64,000 nucleotides of DNA from the NCBI RefSeq assembly GCF_037975245.1, contig NC_092567.1:16235876-16299875 (forward strand), read 5' to 3'. Below, one piece after another: positions 10,696-56,600 of the stretch. Source of the stretch: Apostichopus japonicus (taxonomy: Eukaryota > Echinodermata > Holothuroidea > Aspidochirotida > Stichopodidae). How positions within the stretch are numbered: the first letter of the stretch is position 1; every line of letters starts with the position of its first letter. The translations under genes were made by a program, and so were the position numbers. The notes under the pieces are model-generated. The model did no database searches. It worked only from the letters and a program-made list of their open reading frames with translations, and had not been told where the DNA came from.

Positions 10696-11069
10696 CTTTT
10701 TTAACCTATTTTTAAGATGCTGTAGTCCATTTTATTATATTGTCATTTTATGATGAATATCAATAAATTTTACTTTACTTTACTTTACTTTTACTACAAG
10801 TTTCCATTCTGAGCGTATCTTTTTAGATGTAAGCCATTGAAACAATGTTTTGTTTTTAAGGTGACAGGAGTGGGAAGGAAGTTGCCCCCTATGCTTCTTG
10901 ACTACTGCCAGGTGAGGAATATGCATTCACTGCATGTTTATATTGTATGTATGTCACGGCGCCTACGCCTCTTTTCGATGTTCTGGTAAGATAGGGCGGC
11001 GAACTTAGGGGCTCAATTGAACGTATAGCGAAACGAAAGAAAACATACGATATCCTACATTTAATTTTG

Positions 11070-11330
11070 TTCTCAATATACACAGTACCGTAGCAACTGG
11101 GGGAGTGGGAGACGTTTTCAATATTCACAGGGACGTCACCATTGGGGAGTGGGGACGTTCTCAATATTCAGAGGACCGTAGCCACTGTGTAGTAAGGGAC
11201 AGCCTCAATATACACAGGGCCGTCGCCACTGGGGAGTGGGGACGTTCTCAATATTCAATGGGCCGTACCCACTTGGGGAGGGAAGGATGTTCCTTAATTT
11301 ACATAGGGCCATAGCCACTTGGGAAATGGG
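11070..11330. repeat. Minisatellite, about 44-bp unit
   Basis: Around five diverged units built on a TCAATATTCACAGGGCCGTA-like core followed by CCACTGGGGAGTGGGGACG. The homologous array in copy B occupies about 15540-15785. Open frames here are repeat artefacts. Confidence 0.8.
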
Positions 11331-14579: not shown

Positions 14580-16260
14580 TTAATTAATTTGATTTCATAT
14601 TAAAAACATTCAACGAAAATGTATTCTTTACTTTTATTTTAATTTTCCAAAAGCAAGAAACTTTTAAATTAATATATAAAATATTTTAAGTCGGATAGCT
14701 ACCTACCCACTAGATGAGAAAAGGAAGTTTGTGGGAACGGAAAGGGAAGTCCCCTTTAAAACACCGAGTTCCCGTAAGCTGTTGCAATGTTAGTTTGAAG
14801 TGGTCACAGCGCGATGACTAGTTTGTGAGGAATGGGGTCCGTAGCCATAGTTTCAATTGTTAACTGAAATGCTGGCTGCTACCCCCCCCCCCCATGGCTG
14901 GGGTTTAAGTGTCAAAAAGGTGGTTTGGTGCCCATATCCATATGAGCATTTTGGGTGAGAATGAACAATCCATGAGTTTAATCAGTTTAGATTACTACAA
15001 GTTTCCATTCTGAGCGTATCTTCTTGGATGTAAGAGTTCCCGTAAGCTGTTGCAATGTAATGTTAGTTTGAAGTGGTCACAGCGCGATGAATAATTTGTG
15101 AGGAATGGGGTCCGTAGCCAGAGTTTCATTTGTTAACTCAAATGCTGGCTGATTTCCCCCCATGGCTGGGGTGTAAGTGTCGAAAAGGTGCTTTGGGATC
15201 CCACGTCCATATGAGCAAATTATCTTTGGGTGAGAATGAATAATCCATGATTTTAATCAGTTTGATTACTACAAGTCTCCATTCTGAGCGTACCGGTATC
15301 TTCTTAAATATAAACAATGTTTTGTTTTTATGGTTGCTGGAATGGCGAGTTGCCCCTTATGATCCTTGTCTACTGCCAGGTGAAGAATGTGCATTCATTA
15401 CATGTTTATAATATATATGTATGTCCCGGCCCCTCCCCCTCTTTCCGATGTTCTTGTAATGTAGGGCGAATTTAGGGGTCTCAATTGAATGTATAGCGAT
15501 ACGAAAGAAAACATAGCAATATCCTACATTAAGTTTTGTTCTCAATATACACAGGACCGTAGCAACTGGGGGTTCCTCAATATACATAGGATAGTAGTCA
15601 CTGGGGAATGTGGACGTTCTCGATATACACAGTGCCGTAGCCACTGTAAAGTGAGGGACAGCTTCAATATACACGGGGTTGTAGCCACTTGGGAGAGGGG
15701 ACGTTCTCAATATTCACAGGGCCGTAGCCGCTGGGGGAGGGAGGGACGTACTCAACATACACAGGGCCGTAGCCACTTGGGAAATTGTCGGGGCGTGGCT
15801 CTTGTCTTCATTTCCTCCACCTTTCATCCAATGGGCTAACATTTTACAACACATGCACGTTATTATGTATACACTGTGCTTCTCACAATCTAGTTAACAT
15901 GATGAAAGTTATGGCACACTTTTGCATTTACTTCCCCCTACCAAATAAAAAAAACATCCCCATAGCAGACGTCCCACAAATATTTGGCCCCAACCCTGCC
16001 TTGAGTTTGAACAGAGTGTATAGCTTATATTTTCTCATGGAGGCGAAATATTTCACCAAAACAGAACTGCATGGCATTGTCCAATACAGGTGGCAATTGC
16101 ATACAGTGGAACTACGACCTTCCTTACCGGTTTCGAACCTCTGGACACACAATCAGCGTCCATAGTCTTGTTGGTTACGGTGTCCGCATATAAATCGGGA
16201 GGTCCGGGTTCGAATCACGTTGGAGGCTGGGTCCCACAGGTCTGGATTTTACAACTTATT
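14580..16260. repeat. Segmental duplication copy B, part 2
   Basis: Paralogue of 8162-8600 plus 10797-11800, without the LINE. It also has an internal tandem duplication of its own: 14770-15010 and 15030-15290 share the GTTGCAATGT...TTAGTTTGAAGTGGTCACAG block. It includes a minisatellite (15540-15785) and a SINE head (about 16152-16225). Confidence 0.75.
16152..16225 (+). repeat. tRNA-derived SINE head
   Basis: A tRNA-like stretch with A-box-like TAGTCTTGTTGGTTA and B box GGTTCGAATCA. The ends GCGTCCA and TGGAGGC can pair at six of seven positions. The anticodon stem is imperfect, and a sibling copy exists in copy A, so this reads as a SINE head or tRNA pseudogene rather than a working tRNA gene. 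Confidence 0.6.
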
Positions 16261-27300: not shown

Positions 27301-30300
27301 TAAATATAGTACTTCAAAGTGACCAGAAAGCCTTAGCCTGACAACTTGTATTGCACTGCAACCCCAGTGACCCTCCCTAAAGTCATCCTCTCCCCTCCTC
27401 TCAACCCAATCCATCTTCCTTTAGTTGAGATGCCTATCACACATCATGTGGGAATAGTGGCAGCACGAGTTAAGTACCTTTGACAACTTTCAGCAAAATA
27501 TTTTGCATACTAACATTTTGGGACAACATATCAGTGATGAATTTTACATAATTTTTACTAGTTTACATGGTTGCTGCACTGCAAAAAGTGGATCAGAGGC
27601 GGCTGATACTCCTCGCAAACAAAATGAGTGTCTGTGTTAAACAGTACTGAATGTACACAGCTTTAAACATGTGAATGTCCTTGACCTTCTCACAGACCAG
27701 CCTGAAGGTGGGAACCATCGACAAGTACGCGGTGCTGGCCGTGGGACTGACTTTACAGATCAGGCAACGTACTTCTTGCAGTCTTTCATCGTAGAACGGT
27801 TTGAGAGCGAGCAGGTAACCAATGCACCCTCGTTGAGAGAACTACGAGATGGAGAAGAAGAAGTTGATGAGGAACTCGATGAGTCTTGGAGACAAGTGGG
27901 AGGAACATTCAGACAAATTGCCCAAAGTGTGGATCAGACAGCAGAATTTCAAAGGTAAAGTCATGTTGCTCAAGATGCACAATTACAGAATGGTGTCACA
28001 TTATCAAACCTATACAGTATGAAGAAATCACAACTATACTCTATAAACAAATCTTGAGCTATCTTTTTTGGTTATTTGCCATACGCAGGCAAGTGACATC
28101 AATTTGGTGTGTGTGTGTGTGTGTGCGATGCGCTACCTTCTGTGATATCTCAAGCTAGGTAACCTCTGCAATTCTCATATTTGGCATGTGGCTTTCCCAT
28201 AATTTGTACAAAAACCCCATTGTTTTGAAAGGAGGTCAAAGATCACTTGGGGTCAACAGAAGGCTAAATGTTAACATGTCAAAAACACTATCTCGGGAAT
28301 CTGAACATCAAAGGAGCACATATATGCATGGTAGGATAGCCTTTAGCAGTGTTAATTCTTAATACAATTTGGTGTATCTCAGAGTCACCAGGAACAAGGG
28401 TCAAATCTTGAAATCCTTGTAAACATGATACTGTATCTCCAGGTAGGATATATCAGATGCTCTCATATTTAGCATGTTGCTTTCCTATAATGAGTACAAG
28501 AACTCTTCATTGTGATTGGAGCTTATAGGTCATTTGGGGCCAATAGAGGGCAAAATGTGAAAATCTCAAAAATGCTGTACAGATCTCCAGAACCTGAACA
28601 TCAAAGGAGCTCATATATGCATGGTAGGATAGCCAATAGAGTGCATGGTAGGATAGCCTATTATCTATATATTTCACTTGATCAATAACCCTTTGCTCAC
28701 TCTACTCTATCTCCATTCCTTAAGCTCCATCCTTAGCATTATTTCATGTTCCGAGTCCTTAGGACTGTTTTTCTGTTTCCTTCGCAGTGTCGTTGCTACC
28801 ATTCCTAAAGATCCATCCATTGAGGATATCATGTGCTACGTCAGAGAATCTCTCAGTGATGGTGAAATCAACTGGGGGAGGATTGTCGCATTGTTCTGCT
28901 TTGCCTATCAAGTCTGTGCCAAGGTTATATTATATCTTTAACTTATTGTGCCAAGATATATTTGTATCCTTAACTAAATGTGCCAAGGTACCTGTACCTC
29001 TGTATCCTTAACTTACTGTGCCAAGGTAAGTCAGTATCCTTAACTAGATGTGCCAAGGTATGTCTGTATCCTTAATATTATATTCTTAGTTATCTTTTTG
29101 TGCCAAGATATATTTGTATCCTTAAATAAATGTGCCAAGGTATGTCTGTATCCTTAACTTCCTGTGCAAAGGTATGTCTGTAACCTTAACTAAATGTGCC
29201 AAGGTATGTCTGTATCCTTAACCTACTGTGCAAAGGTAAGTTTGTATCCTTAATTTACTATGCCAAGGTATGTCTGTATCCTTAACTAAACATGCCAAGG
29301 TATGTCTGTATCCTTAACTAACTATGCAAAGGTATGTCTATTTCCTTAACTTAATGTGCCAAGGTATGTCTGTAGCCTTAACTAAATGTACCAATGTACA
29401 GTATGTCTGTAGCCTTAACTTACTGTGCCAAGGTAAGTCAGTATCCTTAACCTACTGTGCCAAGATATGTCTGTATCATTAACTTACTCTGTCAAGGTTT
29501 ATCTGTATCTTTAACTTACTGTGCCAAGGTTTGTCCTTATCCTTAACTTACTGTGCCAAGGTATGTCTGTAGCCTTAACTAAATGTGCCAAGGTATGTCT
29601 ATATCCTTAACTTACTGTGCCAGGGTATATATCTGTAGCCTTACTGTGCAGCCAAGGTATGTCTGTATCATTAACTTACTGTGTCAAGGTTTATCTGTAT
29701 CCTTAACTTACTGTGCCAAGGTATGTCTGTAGCCTTAACTTACTGTGCCAAGGTAAGTCAGTATCCTTAACTAAATGTACCAATGTACAGTATGTCTGAA
29801 GCCTTAACTTACTATGCCAAGGTAAGTCAGTATCCTTAACCTACTGTGCCAAGATATGTCTGTATCATTAACTTACTCTGTCAAGGTTTATCTGTATCTT
29901 TAACTTACTGTGCCAAGGTATGTCTTTATCCTTAACTTACTGTGCCAAGGTATGTCTGTATCCTTAACTTAATGTACCAAGGTATGTCTGTAGCCTTAAT
30001 TTACTGTGCCAAGGTATGTCTGTAGCCTTAACTTACTGTGCCAAGGTAAGTCAGTATCCTTAACTAAATGTACCAATGTACAGTATGTCTGAAGCCTTAA
30101 CTTACTGTGCCAAGGTAAGTCAGTATCCTTAACCTACTGTGCCAAGATATGTCTGTAGCCTTAACTTACTGTGCCAAGGTAAGTCAGTATCCTTAACCTA
30201 CTGTGCCAAGATATGTCTGTATCCTTAACTTAATGTACCAAGGTAAGTCAGTATCCTTAACCTACTGTGCCAAGATATGTCTGTATCCTTAACTTAATGT

Positions 30301-32898
30301 ACCAAGGTATGTCTGTAGCCTTAACTTACTGTGCCAAGGTATGTCTGTAGCCTTAACTTACTGTGCCAAGGTAAGTCAGTATCCTTAACCTACTGTGCCA
30401 AGATATGTCTGTAGCCTTAACTTACTGTGCCAAGGTAAGTCAGTATCCTTAACCTACTGTGCCAAGATATGTCTGTATCCTTAACTTACTGTACCAAGGT
30501 AAGTCAGTATCCTTAACCTACTGTGCCAAGATATGTCTGTATCCTTAACTTAATGTACCAAGGTATGTCTGTAGCCTTAACTTACTGTGCCAAGGTATGT
30601 CTGTAGCCTTAACTTACTGTGCCAAGGTAAGTCAGTATCCTTAACCTACTGTGCCAAGATATGTCTGTAGCCTTAACTTACTGTGCCAAGGTAAGTCAGT
30701 ATCCTTAACCTACTGTGCCAAGATATGTCTGTATCCTTAACTTAATGTACCAAGGTATGTCTGTAGCCTTAACTTACTGTATCAAGGTATGTCTGTAGCC
30801 TTAACTTACTGTGTCAAGGTATGTCTGTTTCCTTAACCTACTGTGTCAAGGTATGTCTGAATCCTTAACCTACTGTGCCAAGGTATGTCAGTATCCTTAA
30901 CTAAATCTACCAAGGTATGTCTGTTTCCTTAACCTACTGTGTCAAGGTATGTCTGTATCCTTAAGTTACTGTGCCAAGGTATGTCTGTAGGGTTAACTTA
31001 CTGTGCAAAGGTATATTTTGTATCCTTAAAAAGTATGAAGAATGGATTCCAACTGCAAAAAATAGTCAGCTTCGTGTTATGGGGGGGGTAGGTAAAATAA
31101 TATCATACAGAAATACACTGTAAAACAGCACCAGTTTAGTGACCAACGATTTCCTTTCTCTAGTAAAATGTTATTAGCTTTTATTACAATTCATATTTTG
31201 GGGCAAGCTATGGAATTAAGACATTCAAACAGCATTGTGCAATTTTGTGTTCTCTCTCTTAAACCAGAAATTCGAAATGTATATGGAGAAAAGGTTTCCA
31301 AATTTCCCATCCTGGCTAACGAAGCTCATCACAGCAGTTGTGAAATTTCTACTTTATAAATTTGCCGATTGGATCGTTAACAGAGGTGGTTGGGTAAGTA
31401 TATGTCCTGAAATCTACAAACACATAAGTTAACAAAACAGACAAATCATGACTGATGACGGTGGTTACTCATATCCATGATTTCTTTTCTACCTCAAGGA
31501 CAAAAACTACTATCCTAACACACTGTAGCATATGCAAGCTGGAGCCTATACCGCAAATTTTGCAAAGTTCTGTGATTGTTTCTTTTACCCCAGGCTCATC
31601 CCTGATTTTAGGGATTAGTTTGACTTTAAGGGTTACTGTATGTTTGTTGGTATGAACAGAAGGAACTAGATGGAAAAATCACATATGCTCTGATCAGAAG
31701 GGAATGTGATGCAAGCTACAGTATGAAAAGAAAATTAATATTAATATAACTGAAATAATTCAGTGTTGGAAGTGTGATAGTTCTAACATTGGTTAGGTTT
31801 TGTACTTTCAATGAGGAATGTTCATGGTGAATATTTTGGCATGATTGGAGGTAAATTAAGGAAAGATTGGAAGGTCCAGTGTGACGTGCTATGACTTTTA
31901 GGTGTAGGCCTATGATATGATGGTATCATTGTGGCATTTAATATCACAGCAGCAAACCGCGAACATGTGATAAATTATATCTAGTAATTTAACATTAACT
32001 TTGCTCCTCGCGCACCTGTGTCCTCACAACCTTAGCATTACTTTTCGTAGTGCATGAAAATTAATATTAATATAACTGAAATAATTCAGTGTTGGAAGTG
32101 TGATAGTTCTAAAATTGGTTAGGTTTTGTACTTTCAATGAGGAATGTTCATGGTGAATATTTTGGCATGATTGGAGGTAAATTAAGGAAAGATTGGAAGG
32201 TCCAGTGTGACGTGCTATGACTTTTAGGTGTAGGCCTATGATATGATGGTATCATTGTGGCATTTAATATCACAGCAGCAAACCGCGAACATGTGATAAA
32301 TTATATCTAGTAATTTAACATTAACTTCGCTCCTCGCGCACCTGTGTCCTCACAACCTTAGCATTAGTTTTCGTAGTGGATAGTTAATATTATGGAAATG
32401 CTAAGGTTGTGAGGAGACAGGTAAGCTTGTCACTCGTAAATATTTAAACCAGTAACTAGTTTTATGATTCCCATGTTAGACTAAATGTAATTTACATGGG
32501 TCTCCTGAATCATGGCACAGCATTGTTTTGTAATATTTTCCGGGAATTAAAAGCATTTTGGAATTGGTGGACATCTCATTTGTTCTGCTCATGTGAAAGG
32601 TCATGACATTTTACCATTGTGAAAAATTGGGACGCAATCACAATTGAATATAAACTAATGATGTATATTTTATATGATTTGAGGTAACCAAAGAAAACAG
32701 GAATGATCCCTAAATGATATCGCCGACCCCAGTTTTGGCTTCTTGAAGAACTTCATTATAATTAACTGTAAAACATAATGATTTCTCTTCCAGCAATCAA
32801 TACAGGAATACTTTGGCACACCAAATACTATATGGAAAGGTTTGATAGTAGCATGCTTATTGACAATCGCTATCAGTATCTGGCAACTAAGAAAATGA
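24270..32898 (+). CDS. BAX-like: BAX/BAK-type BCL-2 family apoptosis effector (five coding exons, 215 aa)
   Basis: Joined coding exons 24360-24381, 27696-27954, 28788-28923, 31268-31393 and 32794-32898 give 215 residues; intron phases are 1, 2, 0, 0. Seen in the protein: a helix-1/BH4-like region (ATYFLQSFIVERF, residues 31-43); a BH3-like helix (VGGTFRQIAQSVD, 75-87); BH1 (DGEINWGRIVALFCFA, 118-133); BH2 (WIVNRGGW, 174-181); then YFGTP (187-191), a hydrophobic anchor (about 197-211) and a basic tail QLRK. The YFGTP plus tail anchor and overall length are BAX-like (vertebrate BAX about 192 aa, BAK about 211 aa). In known family members such proteins sit in or move to the mitochondrial outer membrane and oligomerise into pores that release cytochrome c. 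Oddities: the BH3 acidic position is Gln, and intron 3 is filled by donor-bearing repeats. 5' UTR exons upstream of 24270 were not located. Confidence 0.9.
24521..24886. mobile_element. TTAA-flanked MITE (piggyBac-type), copy 1
   Basis: The sequence between TTAA at 24521-24524 and TTAA at 24883-24886 has imperfect inverted ends (AGGGTGTGAAGACTC, and inverted AGGCATTGAAGACTC). The whole is a close copy of 59097-59465. It lies in intron 1 of the BAX-like gene. TTAA target duplication is the established mark of piggyBac-type elements; no transposase is encoded. Confidence 0.8.
25785..26310. repeat. Diverged tandem repeat, about 115-135 bp unit
   Basis: Three to four units each containing TTCCTGTGGGATTTTGT-like and ACTAGGGAATT-like blocks and a TTCCCCAAG-like block. 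Located in BAX-like intron 1. The 139-codon frame across it is a repeat artefact. Confidence 0.8.
26388..26545. repeat. Minisatellite, CATTTCGCCCAAC core
   Basis: Seven or so units of about 17-22 bp sharing ATTTCGCCCAAC, the later ones as CAGCCTGGTCATTTCGCCCA. Located in BAX-like intron 1. Confidence 0.9.
26613..27224. mobile_element. TTAA-flanked MITE (piggyBac-type), 0.6 kb
   Basis: TTAAAGCAGCATTTTGCGT at 26613 and the exact inverted copy ACGCAAAATGCTGCTTTAA ending at 27224. The TTAA at both edges is the likely target duplication. Non-coding interior. BAX-like intron 1. Confidence 0.82.
27696..27954 (+). CDS. BAX-like: BAX-like exon 2 (helix 1 and BH3 region)
   Basis: 259 nt between acceptor TCTCACAG and donor CAAAG|GTAAAG; enters in phase 1 and leaves in phase 2. 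It encodes residues 8-94: an acidic, low-hydrophobicity N-terminus, ATYFLQSFIVERF (helix 1), an acidic loop (DGEEEVDEELDE) and the BH3-like helix ending TAEFQ. An ungapped alignment of IAQSVDQTAEFQ to vertebrate BAX IGDELDSNMELQ puts Ala at the conserved Gly and Gln at the conserved Asp. Confidence 0.9.
28170..28650. repeat. Diverged tandem duplication, about 290 bp
   Basis: Two copies share the blocks CTCATATTTRGCATGT, AAATGTnAAnATnTCAAAAA, AACATCAAAGGAGC and ATATATGCATGGTAGGATAG. Located in BAX-like intron 2. Confidence 0.75.
28788..28923 (+). CDS. BAX-like: BAX-like exon 3 (BH1)
   Basis: 136 nt between acceptor TTTCCTTCGCAG and donor GCCAAG|GTTATA, phase 2 to phase 0, residues 94-139. It contains SDGEINWGRIVALFCFAYQV, the BH1 helix 5 core with the invariant NWGR. 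The donor GTTATA is weak, whereas the repeat array that starts at this boundary supplies many AAG|GTAAGT and AAG|GTATGT sites. Use of any array donor would read VILYL then stop. Confidence 0.92.
28912..31030 (+). repeat. Minisatellite of exon-3-end plus 5' splice site, about 32-bp unit
   Basis: The unit TGTGCCAAGGTATGTCTGTA followed by TCCTTAACTTAC is repeated over about 2.1 kb, so roughly 65 units by length. The first nine bases TGTGCCAAG are the last nine coding bases of exon 3, and the next bases mimic a 5' splice site (GTATGT, GTAAGT, some ATATGT). Higher-order blocks alternating GTAAGTCAGTATCC and ATATGTCTGTAGCC units occur from about 30040 to 30740. It is in BAX-like intron 3. Confidence 0.95.
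31268..31393 (+). CDS. BAX-like: BAX-like exon 4 (BH2)
   Basis: 126 nt between acceptor TTAAACCAG and donor TGG|GTAAGT, phase 0 to 0, residues 140-181. It encodes an amphipathic segment (WLTKLITAVVKFLLYKFADW) and BH2 WIVNRGGW. The BH2 match to vertebrate WIQDQGGW is strong. Confidence 0.93.
31731..32375. repeat. Near-identical tandem duplication, 326-bp period
   Basis: 31731-32054 and 32057-32375 differ at only a handful of positions (for example ACATT/AAATT, CTTTGC/CTTCGC). This implies a recent duplication. Located in BAX-like intron 4. A short inverted piece GCTAAGGTTGTGAGGA follows at about 32399. Confidence 0.92.
32794..32898 (+). CDS. BAX-like: BAX-like exon 5 (C-terminal anchor and stop)
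   Basis: Acceptor TCTCTTCCAG, then 34 codons and TGA at 32896-32898. It encodes QSIQEYFGTPNTIWK, a hydrophobic stretch GLIVACLLTIAISIW and tail QLRK, the tail-anchor expected of BAX/BAK. The possible polyadenylation signal AATAAA lies at 32975-32980. GTGAGT just after the stop (32908) could also be a donor for a 3'-UTR intron. Confidence 0.92.
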   Translation, partial: QSIQEYFGTPNTIWKGLIVACLLTIAISIWQLRK

Positions 32899-38514: not shown

Positions 38515-38679
38515 TTATTCAGGTATTTCTGTGAAAAACCCATAAAAACCAGATCGCTTTACAATCTCATCTGTATGAAAGAGAATGATCACGTGATGAG
38601 TTATCGACTCCCAAGTAAATGGTTCACTCGTTCGGCCGCAAAATCTTCCCGAGCGGTCATTGGACACTCCATCCACAAA
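38515..38679 (-). CDS. CUB12 C-terminal half, last exon
   Basis: Acceptor TTCTCTTACAG, then FVDGVSNDRSGRFCG, the CUB strand core PFTWESITHHVIILF, and GFYGFFTEIPE before TAA. The stop comes exactly where earlier C halves end, so the protein ends with a CUB. AATAAA overlaps the stop codon (38514-38519), an unusually close potential polyadenylation signal. Confidence 0.9.
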   Translation of the reverse strand, partial: FVDGVSNDRSGRFCGRTSEPFTWESITHHVIILFHTDEIVKRSGFYGFFTEIPE

Positions 38680-41600
38680 CTGTAAGAGAACAGGGTACAA
38701 TGACGTCAAGAAAGGAGAGAGGAAGTGGGCCTTCAATTAGTACCAATTTGGGTATGATGGGTACGTATAATATTGTGGTGTATATATGTTGTTTGGAAGA
38801 CAGGTAAGCAAAGCGAAATAAATCTGTCCATAAAGAATAAGTAAGTAACCAAAGCATAACCAAAGCAACAGGATGTTCCATTCTTCTTGTCCATAAAGAA
38901 TAAGTAACTAAACATATCATAATCGATGTTGCAGTTTGTTCCATACTTCAAATTAATCAAGAATAGGTAACTGAACAAAACGCAATCAAACTTGCAAGAG
39001 TATCCATACTCCACGTTTATAAAGAATAAGTAATGGATTAAAGCATAATGAAACTTGCATGATGGTTCGTAATACACGTTAATAAAGAAAAAAGTAACTA
39101 ACCAAAACATAATCACACTTGCATGATGGTTCATGCTCCACGTCCATGAAGAATAAGTAACTTACCAGAACATAATCAAACTTGCATGATGATTCATACT
39201 CCACGTCCATGAAGAATAAGCAACTTACCAGAACATAATCAAACTTGCATGATGGTTAATTTTCCACGTCGATGAAGAATAAGTAACTTACCAGAACATA
39301 ATCAAACTTGCATGATGATTCATGCTCCACGTCCATGAAGAATAAGCAACTTACCAGAACATAATCAAACTTGCATGATGGTTAATTTTCCACGTCGATG
39401 AAGAATAACTAACTTACCAGAACATAATCAAACTTGCATGATGATTCATGCTCCACGTCCATGAAGAATAAGTAACTTACCAGAACATAATCAAACTTGC
39501 ATGATGATTCATACTCCACGTCCATGAAGAATAAGCAACTTACCAGAACATAATCAAACTTGCATGATGGTTAATTTTCCACGTCGATGAAGAATAACTA
39601 ACTTACCAGAACATAATCAAACTTGCATGATGATTCATACTCCACGTCCATGAAGAATAAGCAACTTACCAGAACATAATCAAACTTGCATGATGGTTAA
39701 TTTTCCACGTCGATGAAGAATAACTAACTTACCAGAACATAATCAAACTTGCATGATGATTCATGCTCCACGTCCATGAAGAATAAGTAACTTACCAGAA
39801 CATAATCAAACTTGCATGATGATTCATACTCCACGTCCATGAAGAATAAGCAACTTACCAGAACATAATCAAACTTGCATGATGGTTAATTTTCCACGTC
39901 GATGAAGAATAACTAACTTACCAGAACATAATCAAACTTGCATGATGATTCATACTCCACGTCCATGAAGAATAAGCAACTTACCAGAACATAATCAAAC
40001 TTGCATAATGGTTAATTTTCCACGTCGATGAAGAATAACTAACTTACCAGAACATAATCAAACTTGCATGATGATTCATACTCCACGTCCATGAAGAATA
40101 ACTAACTTACCAGAACATAATCAATCTTCCATGATGGTTCATACCCCACGTCCATGAAGAAGAATAAGTAACTTACCAGAACGTAATCAAACTTGCATGC
40201 TGGTTCATACTCCACGTCCATAAAGAATAAGTAACTTACTAGAACACAATCAATCTTCCATGATGGTCCATACTCCACGTCCATGAAGAATAATTAACTT
40301 ACCAGAACATAATCAATCTTCCATGATGGTTCATACCCCACGTCCATGAAGAAGAATAAGTAACTTACCGGAACGTAATCAAACTTGCATGCTGGTTCAT
40401 ACTCCACGTCCATAAAGAATAAGTAACTTACCAAAACGTAATCAAACTTGCATGATGGTTCATACTCCACGTCCATGAAGAATAAGTAAAGAATAAGTAA
40501 CTTACTAGAACACAATCAAACTTGCATGATGATTCATACCGCACGTCCATAAAGAATAAATAACTTACCAGAACGTAATCAAACTTGCATGCTGGTTCAT
40601 ACTCCACGTCCATGAAGAATAAGTAACTAACCAGAACATAATCAATCTTCCATGATGGTTCATACCCCACGTCCATGAAGAATAAGTAACTTACCAGGAC
40701 GTAATCAAACTTGCATGATGGTTCATACTCCACGTCCATGAAGAACAAGTTAATAGCGACTCTAGTACCCACAGGAGCCTTAAAGTCAATACGACAATCT
40801 TCATTGTTCAGATAAGGATCAGGGAAAGATGGTGACGAGAAAAACCCAGAATGTCCCTCAAGTTTTTCGTAGCAGGCTGGAACTAAAACATATAAATTTG
40901 AATCGAATTATCATAACCTATAAACTCGTTTGAAGCAGCTGTGTTGCTTTTCATTCTGTAGGCGATGCTTCAAAACCTACCTAGAATTTGTTACTATTGA
41001 ACACTTTGCAATTGATCTAACCAGGACACCAATCTGCATTTCCATTTTTATGAACGGAGGAAACAAAATTGATTATATAATGATTTAATGAATAGTAAAT
41101 GTATAGTATTCGATTTTAATTTTTCTGCTCCAAGACTCCTCTTCATATCATTTATATGACGAAGATTTGATTACAAACATTGCCAACTAACAAACCATTC
41201 TACACACAAATACACTTGTATTAATGAACACAAATTTGATAACATATATTTGCGCAAGACATATAGAAGTAATTATTCTGTAATATTAACCACTGCTCTG
41301 GAATTTATGTATCAACCCCCCTTCCAAAAAATGCACTCTGTGCAAATAATAAATAAAACGTAGCTAATAAAATGGTAGTGCGGTTACAGATTTTATCAGA
41401 TCTTAATTATCAGGCTGATTAAAAAGAATCAGGTGTCAGCATCGAGAGACTTTTGAAGACAAGTCAACCAAGATAGGGCCTAGGCACGAAAACCAAACAA
41501 CATGATTAACTCGACTACACCCCCCTCCCCTACTCCCCCCCTTACCCTCACATCGGGACAGCAAATTTGTGATCATGACGACGTTTCGACCAGTGCGTAT

Positions 41601-50600: not shown

Positions 50601-53600
50601 ATTAAATTCCACCTTTATGATTATTATGATTATTTTTTGAGTCGAAATTGCATGTTTTCACTCAAGGCTCCAATATTCTTATCCAAAAAAATGTTATTTC
50701 GGCTTTGCTATACGTAGTCAAATGAACACCCAACACCCATCAGTACACCCTTCACCCACCCCACACGCACCTCTCTGTCTCTCGCTGATACTCTTCATAC
50801 ACCATTTTTGGTTCACGTGAACTACTTGTCAACAACTTTACAAATCGGAACCAAAGAACCTGATAAGGGACAAATTATTGAGGGTTTTGTTTTTTGAAAT
50901 TTTCTCTGAAATGTGGAAAATTTTACGTAAACTTCAACAAGTTTCATATTATTTAAAAGGAAGATATTTCATCATCTTCAGTGTGATATTCTATCATCCA
51001 AGTTACAAAAGTGATAAAGATGCATAATCCTACTTGGCGTAAACGTAAATATGAAAATAATAAAAAATGCAATCACTTACCGTCAACTCAATTGAACAAT
51101 TTGTTGATGTGGTCATTGCTTCATGCAAAGAAATGATAATCCTTCTGTTTGGTCGAAAATTAACAACGATTTGGCATTTATTAGGTCTGTTTTGGAAAGA
51201 CTGAATATTTGACAGAAGTAACCAGGAATTTTCATCTCTCACTGTAGCAGTACAAACTGAAAGGGAAACAACACAATATGTCGCAATTATTGTTTATTCT
51301 AATTTGTTTGAAAGGGAATTTTTAACGAATAGCTTTATTCTTACGCTCATTAAAAATAATATAATTAAGTCACTCTTTAATATAAATGATATATATATAT
51401 ATATATCATATAATATATAATATCATATATCAGCTTATTTGTTTCATTAGTAAATTCCATATTTTCGAACAAACAAGCATGTTAATGTTTTTACCAACCT
51501 CTAGGTCTGGAACGATCGATAGATTTCCAGGTTAACGTGAATGGTGGCAGCCCTTGTTTATAGGTCAACAGATGAAGAAAAACCGCGTTAGAGTCAGAGG
51601 TCCAGGCAAATATGTTTTCAATTTGACAAATTTCAGTCGTCTGGTACGAGCCTAGATCTACAAACTGAAGAGAGAAAGAGATAGAAGTTGTTAAACATAT
51701 TGACATGTTAACGTTAGGAAGAATCTTTACATGAGATAACTGGGATCCCAATTTACCGGGCTTTACGTAATCTTCTTAAGTCGGCATTAAACTAAAACGA
51801 CTAAACACGACTCGAGCTTAGTCGTATATATATAGTATGACAACTAATCTCGCACCCTGAATAATTAATGAGGGCATAAAGTCTGTTTCTGTTCAACGAC
51901 AGTTGCCCCGTTAGTTCGCATTCCTTGAAACTATTCAGGGAAATGTGAGAGTTACGATAACATCTTCTACTTCTATTCGCAAACCGTCGCGCATTGATAG
52001 TTGGGGAAACACTACATGTTGAGCTTCTCCGAATCAATCTGTCAAAAAATGAATAATTCTAAAGTCTAAAGTACTATTACTGAATTATATTTTCCAAGTT
52101 TTTGTTCAGTCGGGCAGTGTGGGGTCCACTCAGTTTATACTGCATCTGTCACATCACATACCACATATGTCACATCACATACCACATATGTCACATAATA
52201 TTACATACCACATTTGTCACACAACACCACATACCACATGCGGCACATCACATACCATATGTCACATAATACCACATATGTCACATCACGCATGTAACAT
52301 CACATAATTGCATCTGTCACATCACATGTCACATCTGTTACATTACATCACATATCACATCACGTATGTCACATCACATATCACATTTGTCACATCACAT
52401 CATTGGACATATCACATATCTGTCATTTCATATCACTCAAGCAGTCCGTTATGTAAGTTTGTACACATACCACAATTTCTGCAGTATCACAATCTTGTAA
52501 AATAAGATCACTGATCTTAATCTGGAGTCGATATTCAGAGCCAGTTTCGATGATAAATTGACAAAATGCCCTCTCTTGTAATTGATTATGGAAATTAATA
52601 TCTTCCTTGTCAAAAATAAACTCTCCACTTATCTCGTTGAACCGATAGAGGCAATCTGGAAATAGAAATATATTAAAAAAAACAGAGAAACGATTACAAG
52701 TTCATTGTTTTGTTTGCTGGAATGCGAAATTATATTATAAGCATAACATTTGGTTGGTGTGTGTTAAATTTATTTTCAGCTACTATATATTATATATAAA
52801 TTCAGTAAAGTGAAATTTTGCTTTATAACATTAATTTGATAAGCTAATTGAAATAATATAGTTTGAAATCTGAAACTTTGGAACCCCTTCTCCCCCTTCC
52901 CCCCCCCCCCAAAAAAAAACAACATAATGCAAATTGCTTAAATTCAAGTTGCTTCACACATGTATAGCTCACAACGTTACGTCGGTGCTATACCACGTGC
53001 TGTAATTGCTGAAATAAGGAAGAAACAAAAGGAAAAACACTGAAATAGAGGGAGCGATAACAAAGATTTGTCAAATCAAGATAAATGCTTGTCAGTATTT
53101 ACCTCCTGTGTATCTGTCCGGGATAACTTCATAACCAAGACTGAAACCTTTCTTCTGTTCTTCTTTATCGGTTTCAAAAGTGACAAGTACTTCATTGGCA
53201 TCAGAGAGCCACACAAACTGTTGGTCTCCACAGATAATTAAACTCTTGCCTGAAACCTGGTCTTCAACCTGTCATTCAGAGTAAACAAAATTCCCTATCG
53301 ATCTTGTGTTTGTTTCCAATCTTTACATTAAACTCAATTAATGAAATAAATCATATTGATAAATATCATAATTATATATCAAGATTGTGGTTATGTCCTC
53401 CAGGCTATGAGAATTTAACCAAAGTCGAATAACTTTCAAAAACATATGAAGAGGCCGGGTGTGGTCTACATGATAAGACGATCGTTACAAACATGATACC
53501 TATCAACTCCCATCATCTCCCCACCCCCCCCCCCCTCTCCTACCATCCGCCCATCAACTCTCCTAGCGTAGCTAAAACTAGTAGGAACTGATAAATTACT

Positions 53601-56600
53601 GCATTGTAATTGTTAAATTTAGTCTTAATTATGACATCAATTCCTCCCCTCATTTGCAATTGATCGGTATTCCTGAGATATGAAACTTTACTTTTACAGA
53701 GTTGTTCATGCAGTTGCCTTTGTCTTAATTTGCCCCGCAATCATACCACCCCGACCCAACCGCTCAGCACCCACCGCTCCACGCCCACCGCTCCACACCC
53801 ACCGCTCCACACCCACCGCTCTATACCCACCGCTCCACGCCCACCGTTCATCGCCCTCACCCGGCCTCCTCAGATTAGAAGCTTACCCTGACAAAGTCTT
53901 TCATGCAATTGGTACTGTCTTGTAGAATAAATTCGTTGAATACCAATGAGATAATATCCCCCGGATTAGCGTGGATTAACCATTGATGTCGAACCATTGC
54001 CGGATAATCCAACGGGTAACCGATAGATTGCAAGGTACCCGTATCGTTTTTCAGTTCTAGAAAAGTGCCTGCATGTAGAATAATTCAATTCAGTTCAATT
54101 CATTTCATTTCACTTGACAATTACAAAAAGCTCCAAGTGGACCAAGTAAATGTACATAAAAAATAGAACAAGCATTTATGAGAGACAAATTTTAACTAGG
54201 AATTGTTAAGAAGTTTAACACCGAAATCTGATTTAATTGTGATCATCCCCTTAGGAAACGTTAAATATATTATTTGCTAGTCTACTTTACTCCCATTTCT
54301 TCCCTATACTAGTCTCCTTTGATTATTATGTTGCTAAGTTGCAGAAGTCGTGCTTCGTGCACCTCGATAAGGACCCCCACTCCACACCCACCGACCCCCA
54401 CTCCACACCCACCGACCCTGTCACTAGTTGGCGCATGTACGTAAGCATTTCATACCGTTATATCTTGATATTGCTGTGAAGCTAGCACGGAATGCCTGTT
54501 CATCCAAAGAAAGAGACATATTAAAGGAGACCTCTACTGTGTTACTATCGGATGTCCACGCGAAGGAATCTGCCAGATTACAAACCAACTCTTCTCGATT
54601 CGAAGTTAAATCATGAAACTGGAAAAAAAGTGGGAAAAGTAAAGCAAATCATTATTGTTCCGTTTTCATTAATAATCTTTTGTAAGTACCATATTTTTTT
54701 TCAATTAGTTTTTGAAAAATACGGAAGAACTTGGTAAGGCTACATATGTCATCTTGTTATAGCAAACACATCACACGTTGGCACAAGCTGTGGCAGTCGC
54801 TACTGAGTGTTTTATCTAAACGTGTAATCAACTAGGTCTGAAAATGAAGTTGAAATTTAATTTATTTATGGAAAAAACTTCCTAGTAATTGGAACACTGC
54901 AGGTATCACCTTTTCACGTTCTTATAGGATACACGACACAAGTCGAGGATTCTCGGAAAGTGGGTCATAGTGGGCATCTACAAACAGTACCCACACTGTG
55001 CACGTTCAGTAAATACGATATCGTATGAGTATCTTATAAGTCAACTAAGGGACGAATGTAATCAAGTACACGGTGTCCACAGGAGTGTTTGCTATACTAT
55101 TTCAGTTGACCTATCCTGAACTGTGCGACTCGCACATGCGCACGTGGAATTGCAATGTATCTTAGTGCTCTGATTTTATTTTGAATCTCGTACGTTTTCA
55201 ATGAGAATATTATTTCAAGAGAATCATGGGATAACGATAGACGAACTCTAGTATATTAATGTGAATCTTATGCAAATTTGATATATCCTTCCAGTACCTT
55301 TACACTGTCGTTACATCCACTGCCCTCTAATCTGTTTGTTAATTCTCCTTCGTCACTTTTCTCAACGGAAACGATATGTTTCAATCTGAGCAAAATCTTG
55401 TCGTCATGTTCAACTTGAATTATTACAATTGAATTTCGACTGGTGGGCTGCTTTCCAGTATATGACGTCACTGATGATGTAAGAGAGGTGAAGTCGCCTT
55501 TTTGTTGTTTTAGGAATTGATGATTATCGCTTGCCGGTGGCCTTGCTTGTATCACGTGACTGAAGCTGGCAGAAACCTGTCCGGGCTCAAATGATCCCTT
55601 GAAGCTTAGTAGCATTTCATTTCCAAATGACAATAGCGAGAAATTACTCGATGATGAACAAATATGCGTCACCTCATTGGAGTGAAAATCTGTTATCTGA
55701 ATGAAAGAAGAAAAGAAGAAATTAGACAGGGAAGAGTAATTTAAACGAGATTCAGATAGAAAAAAGTAATCAAAATCGACGCAAATGAAGTTAAAATTTG
55801 TATAGTGTTAGCTCAGGGGGTTAGCTCAGCAGAGTGTTAGCTCAGTGTTTAACGCCGGTGCCTTCCAATCTTAAGGTTCCCGGTTCGAGTCACTCCAAGA
55901 TTAATGTCACTCCAGTTACTCCAGTTACAGAGTTGTTGACAATTGAACATTCGTAATCATGGACGTTAAATACGAATGTAAGAGACTGACTTCAGTCAGC
56001 TTGCGGCTTTGATAAGCCAATTAGGCTTCTTCGCGAGTTCCTGCTTGCAGGAGGATCTAAAAAATACATACATACATACATACAATACATACAGTTTAGA
56101 GCTATAGGTGCACTTCAACCCGCCATATTCAGTACGTGTCACTAGGTGACGACCCATAGGGTTGCAGCTACAAACCGGGGACACACACTAACTATAGGTT
56201 ATAAATTGTCCTTGCAGAGCCACATTTATACACCTGAGTGAAGAGAAGCAATGAAGAAGAAGTGCCTTGTTCATTGAGGGGATGACAATACGTGAATGGC
56301 TAGCCAGAACTCGAATCTATAATCCTTTCAACGCAAGTCCATTACCTTTTCCTTTTGGAAAGCACAATATCCGCTTTAAGCATCTATTGTCATATTAATG
56401 CAATCCGGGAGTTTTTTTTATGATGCAACAAACCAGTCGATTCACACAGAGAATACTAATGTAAATCTGTAAATCTAACTACTGTAAGTTTTTGCCACAG
56501 TAGAAACTTGATCGTGCTAACAAATCTGATAAATCGGTAGCATGTGCTATTATGATTACAGTAAGAACTGAGGGTACGTGTAATTCCAACAAATCCCAAC

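Follow-up and report, generated by a model that had tools for sequence, protein, structure and literature searches.

The window, a stretch of 64,000 nucleotides from Apostichopus japonicus (contig NC_092567.1, positions 16,235,876 to 16,299,875), contains a poly-CUB gene on its minus strand and a BAX/BAK-like gene on its plus strand. A protein search with the assembled exons identified the poly-CUB gene as cubilin-like of A. japonicus (deposited protein P0001, 1864 residues), the sole protein of this species among the six matches. From residue 366 on, 1498 of 1499 residues of P0001 are found exactly in the window, distributed over 24 blocks. P0001, like the deposited BAX protein P0009 discussed below, may be a prediction.

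The last CUB domain of this gene is divided between two exons. The N-half exon (40695..40882, minus strand) matches residues 1748-1810 of P0001 exactly, the codon of residue 1748 being split by the intron at the start of the exon. Its 3' end reads ...TTTGATTACGTCCTG/GTAAGT, also given as ...GATTACGTCCTG/GTAAGT (here and below, a slash marks a splice boundary). The C-half exon (38518..38679, minus strand), which also encodes the end of the protein, is exact to residues 1811-1864; it starts at 38679, with the acceptor ...CTCTTACAG/TTTGTGGATGGA. Joined, the two halves are recognized by Pfam as a CUB domain (PF00431, E 2e-19). The intron position is common to the 11 N-half CUB exons examined, in phase 0 in all of them. 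In P0001 the junction is ...CKFDYVL/FVDGVSNDR.

The intron between 40695 and 38679, about 2 kb long, is nearly all tandem array. Parsed by consensus, the array consists of 30 units that run from 40745 to 38838 on the minus strand, and its TRF score of 2608 indicates that the repetition did not arise by chance. Each unit joins the 51 terminal bases of the exon to 12 intron bases with GTAAGT, the boundary of exon and intron lying inside the unit. The parse thus confirms what the sequence-only reading had described as the last 17 codons plus 12 intron bases. The unit length is exactly 63 bp in 26 of the 30 units; the inserts are of 11 bp in unit 5, 3 bp in units 7 and 10, and 1 bp in unit 27. A DNA search of the 671.6-Mb genome, of a kind that can miss repeats, listed the array at its own place only.

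Donor scores refer to a human 5' splice site matrix, applied here to a sea cucumber. Unit 1 (40683..40745) holds the native exon end, as indicated by the parse and by the intron position shared with the other CUB exons; its donor CTG/GTAAGT, with the last exon base at 40695, scores 6.6. This is the donor of the P0001 junction, which joins it to 38679 with zero added copies. Units 2-4 (40494..40682, minus strand) have their last exon bases at 40632, 40569 and 40506, and splicing from them would add one to three copies of 21 residues in frame. Donors 1-4 thus form a set of in-frame donors to the acceptor at 38679, all in phase 0 and without a stop; the sequence-only reading was right about these four exon ends, about the phase-0 argument and about the open frame. 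It also had each added copy end in SCKFDYVL. The actual ends are SWKIDYVL, ACKFDYVL and SCKFDCVL, none of them exact, and added copies 2 and 3 would put odd cysteines into the CUB domain. Donor 2 (GTTAGT, score 2.6) and donor 4 (CTA/GTAAGT, score 3.3) are weak, so that a ladder made of these donors would have two weak rungs.

Units 5-25 (39154..40493, minus strand) keep their donors; the 11-bp insert in unit 5 shifts their frame, and one type of unit contains a TAA. Units 26-30 (38838..39153, minus strand) make up the diverged distal end, where GT is missing from the donor place in units 27-29 and the donor is weak in units 26 and 30. Over the whole array, 27 of 30 units have GT where the donor is expected, and in 22 of 30 the donor scores at least 5.0. 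Splicing from any of units 5-30 would cost the protein its normal end. About 25 further donors had been expected past the fourth, many after a frame break or stops; those with GT number 23.

The mean identity is 0.91 in units 1-10, 0.94 in units 11-25 and 0.70 in units 26-30. Units 11-25 form a near-homogeneous core with a few alternating types; this is the picture of an ordinary minisatellite, with turnover in its core. Conservation in the donor columns does not exceed that of the rest of the unit: 21 of the 63 nine-column windows are conserved equally or better than the one that covers the donor. Coding constraint was also considered for the degenerate units 27-30, where the raw values (pS 0.44, pN 0.21) might suggest it. 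We rejected it, as randomly placed distinct events give P values of 0.09 and 0.13, with no third-position excess in these units.

The second array of the window, independent of the first, lies in the BAX/BAK-like gene and is longer. It has 66 units (28915..31035, plus strand) of the form TGTGCCAAG/GTATGT..., starting from the last 9 bases of an exon. The unit measures exactly 32 bp in 57 of 66 cases, a period not divisible by three. GT is kept in 53 of 66 units, the first G of the donor being lost in the other 13, and 42 of 66 units have a score of at least 4. The next exon (31268..31393, plus strand; KFEMYMEKRF...NRGGW) follows the acceptor TTAAACCAG/AAATTC. The joined piece matches the Bcl-2 family in Pfam (PF00452, E 2e-14), and P0007, the protein of a relative, is continuous across the junction. 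In the deposited A. japonicus BAX protein, P0009, the junction CAK/KFEMY corresponds to donor 1 of the array (AAG/GTTATA, last exon base 28923). The array is not in phase and a stop follows shortly behind donor 1, which is the sole productive, open-frame donor.

Donor 1 of the BAX/BAK-like array scores only -1.3 and has 42 better donors behind it, which is hard to square with simple tolerance of the extra donors. The donor window of this array ranks near the top in conservation: only 2 of 32 nine-column windows reach its level, itself included. That the deposited junction falls on one of the poorest donors is the observation that puzzles us most. Beyond the exon at 31268 there is a tandem duplication of 326 bp (31730-32378, 99% matches), which is probably recent.

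The window holds further arrays. A similar 43-bp unit, CACAGGGCCGTAGCCACTGGGGAGTG, is found in two separate ones, at 11069-11324 and 15576-15784. The arrays at 52143-52419, 53754-53846 and 54372-54418 on the minus strand, and at 28003-28053 on the plus strand (the last read by eye), start about 38-52 bases past donors of both genes. Among the 18 window arrays with a period of at least 12 and at least 2.5 copies, a donor scoring at least 5 inside the unit occurs at the CUB and BAX-like loci only. Random placement of 23 window arrays yields two or more boundary arrays in 7.6% of cases, and the window alone is therefore no proof of recurrence. A wider rule, which accepts array edges up to one unit upstream or 60 bases downstream of a donor, counts 6 of 23 arrays against a random mean of 1.05 (P 0.0005), although this rule was set post hoc, once the distances had been seen, and some BAX-like donor positions were read by eye. 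Near acceptors there are none (0 of 23, random mean 1.0). We take the clustering of arrays near donors in the window as a lead only.

We scanned the 671.6-Mb genome for three copies of AGGTAAGT spaced by 12-42 bases. There are 253 matches to this pattern and 411 to its reversed letters; by this count the donor motif is not enriched in tandem arrays genome-wide. Among the matches listed, 13 arrays on contigs C1-C5 could, by our count, be told apart, and all 13 were examined. Five of these motif-picked arrays start at the 3' end of a coding exon identified through Pfam and PDB searches: a TIL domain (L022), ceramide glucosyltransferase (L023), serine palmitoyltransferase 1 (L024), a tyrosine phosphatase (L025) and a GDA1/CD39 nucleotidase (L034). 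Four of them are Pfam matches; L024 comes from the PDB search only, which the control arrays did not get. The remaining eight arrays could be tied to no known exon, with no Pfam match at the array edge for L027, L029 and L031-L033 and no open frame of at least 25 codons there for L028 and L030. Two of the eight, L026 (C2:13554700-13556900, open frame RGGSILTNATAAAYESVQIVTK) and L028 (C3:232100-234200, ATGGCGGATGAAAG/GTAAGT), may start at exon ends.

As a control, we sampled 20 contigs, each at a single fixed position, for a total of 200 kb with 36 arrays. None of the 36 has a donor scoring at least 5 in its unit (1 of 36 with reversed letters), and the 50 open frames at their edges gave no Pfam match; these frames were taken from both strands and both edges, those of the donor set from the donor strand only. 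By Pfam alone, 4 of 13 donor arrays abut an exon, against 0 of 36 control arrays (Fisher P 0.0034). For L025 the first donor was manually chosen as the start, 18 bases ahead of the edge given by TRF; a frame begun at the TRF edge would, followed by eye, meet a TAA, and without L025 the figure is 3 of 13 (P 0.016). Boundary-spanning donor arrays thus recur at other exons of the A. japonicus genome. In the five exon-linked arrays the donor steps are 27/28, 42/48, mostly 37-40, mostly 45, and 47 bases. Together with the 32 bp of the BAX-like array, the steps of 27/28, 37-40 and 47 mean that a period divisible by three is no rule, even if 42/48 and mostly 45 also occur.

For such elements the sequence-only reading knew of no named class. 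In this it was mistaken: the "mirages" of amphioxus and the minisatellite of the human gene IFI6 are of the same kind. The unit of the IFI6 (6-16/G1P3) minisatellite is 12 bp long. The minisatellite contains multiple splice donors (Turri 1995, as cited in PMC2572611), and two downstream repeat units act as splice donors, so that three mRNA species arise (PMC4526556). Like the CUB array, it is a minisatellite that repeats the 5' splice site at an exon end; unlike IFI6, with its downstream repeat donors, the deposited cubilin-like model of A. japonicus uses donor 1 only. With downstream donors in use in IFI6, use of the array donors is possible in principle. In human segmental duplications, the expansion of internal tandem repeats at an exon-intron boundary alters gene structure (PMC2812944), but there the outcome is elongated exons or introns and new introns, unlike the donor arrays of A. 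japonicus.

Mirages are minisatellites that lie over exon-intron boundaries in amphioxus, described for Adh3 and for the globins BflGb6 and BflGb9 (PMC3087553, PMC3902484); a troponin C mirage and similar repeats in PGBD5 are also mentioned (PMC3902484). In an amphioxus mirage cluster the core is homogenised and the edges are not, and RT-PCR suggested that regular splicing was undisturbed (PMC3087553). Boundary-spanning tandem units, many with splice signals, are common to amphioxus mirages and the A. japonicus arrays, and the CUB array repeats the pattern of a homogenised core with a diverged edge (0.94 versus 0.70). The host differs, A. japonicus being an echinoderm, and so does array size: the two window arrays have 30 and 66 units, the two BflGb6 haplotypes of amphioxus 6 and 3. 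Amphioxus mirages occur at both 5' and 3' boundaries, whereas the seven cases in A. japonicus, five of which were picked by a donor motif, are all at 5' boundaries. In their structural features, as read here from sequence, the A. japonicus arrays correspond to mirages. Among the matches listed in the open-licence literature, the term is not used outside amphioxus, and no mirage-type array appears in the listed papers on A. japonicus.

We consider, with a probability of about 80%, that the CUB array is a recurrent mirage-type minisatellite, of which donor 1 is spliced and the other donors are tolerated. A short tandem duplication would by chance have spanned the 3' end of the exon and its 5' splice site, and the array would then have expanded inside the intron through unequal exchange or slippage. 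Selection would continue to act on unit 1, which supplies both coding sequence and the genuine donor; the remaining units would be intron and probably neutral. Most transcripts are expected to join donor 1 to 38679, in which case the extra donors are tolerated and not used. Since each unit carries a complete donor, the splice site outlasts any gain or loss of units; boundary-spanning arrays may persist, and appear again at other genes, for this reason. In favour of tolerance is the BAX-like array, whose period is not divisible by three and leads to an early stop, and where P0009 also uses donor 1. Against it count the intron-proximal donors of DOK7, able to win such a competition, the well-kept donor window of the BAX-like array, the 8 of 13 genomic arrays with no identified exon and the ratio of 253 to 411 triplets.

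The sequence-only reading had proposed a natural ladder, with donors 1-4 all in use and CUB proteins carrying zero to three extra 21-residue repeats, comparable to IFI6. The phase and open frame of these donors would permit it, as would the precedent of repeat units acting as donors (PMC4526556). However, donors 2 and 4 score 2.6 and 3.3 against 6.6, the deposited protein uses donor 1 and has no extra copy, a period divisible by three is not general, and the BAX-like array is out of phase and meets a stop. An extra strand with odd cysteines would also be expected to disturb the CUB fold. We find the ladder unsupported and unlikely. It is less probable still that the array acts as a decoy that binds U1 and tunes the output of the gene, by holding U1 snRNP, delaying splicing, guarding a long intron from early polyadenylation or feeding nonsense-mediated decay. 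The many good donors (22 of 30 CUB units at 5.0 or above, 42 of 66 BAX-like units at 4 or above) and the conservation of the BAX-like donor window speak for such a role, but the donor window of the CUB array is unremarkable (21 of 63 windows as conserved or more), its distal units have lost their donors and AGGTAAGT triplets are genome-wide no commoner than in the reversed control (253 versus 411). That the array length derives from one assembly, apparently that annotated for P0001, leaves an assembly artefact or a collapsed repeat to be considered. This we regard as very improbable: the units differ in an ordered way, in their types, inserts and diverged end, and like structures are present at six further loci.

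Returning to the mirage-type minisatellite, the arrays described here document mirage-type minisatellites in an echinoderm, which is new as far as the matches listed show; long arrays are among them, and at least seven genes of one genome are involved. A broader proposal is more tentative, and we hold it to be possible though rather doubtful: sea cucumbers, like amphioxus, may repeatedly form minisatellites of 5' splice sites, some of them in conserved housekeeping and apoptosis genes, with a spliceosome that picks the outermost donor although dozens of identical or superior donors follow at intervals of 30-60 bases. If this is true, nature would offer an experiment on donor competition in the choice of the outermost donor, and the BAX/BAK-like gene would have an array of variable length that could set the amount of functional protein. 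The choice of the spliceosome among many equal donors becomes testable on natural alleles, and these genes offer cases for the change of gene structure through boundary duplication.
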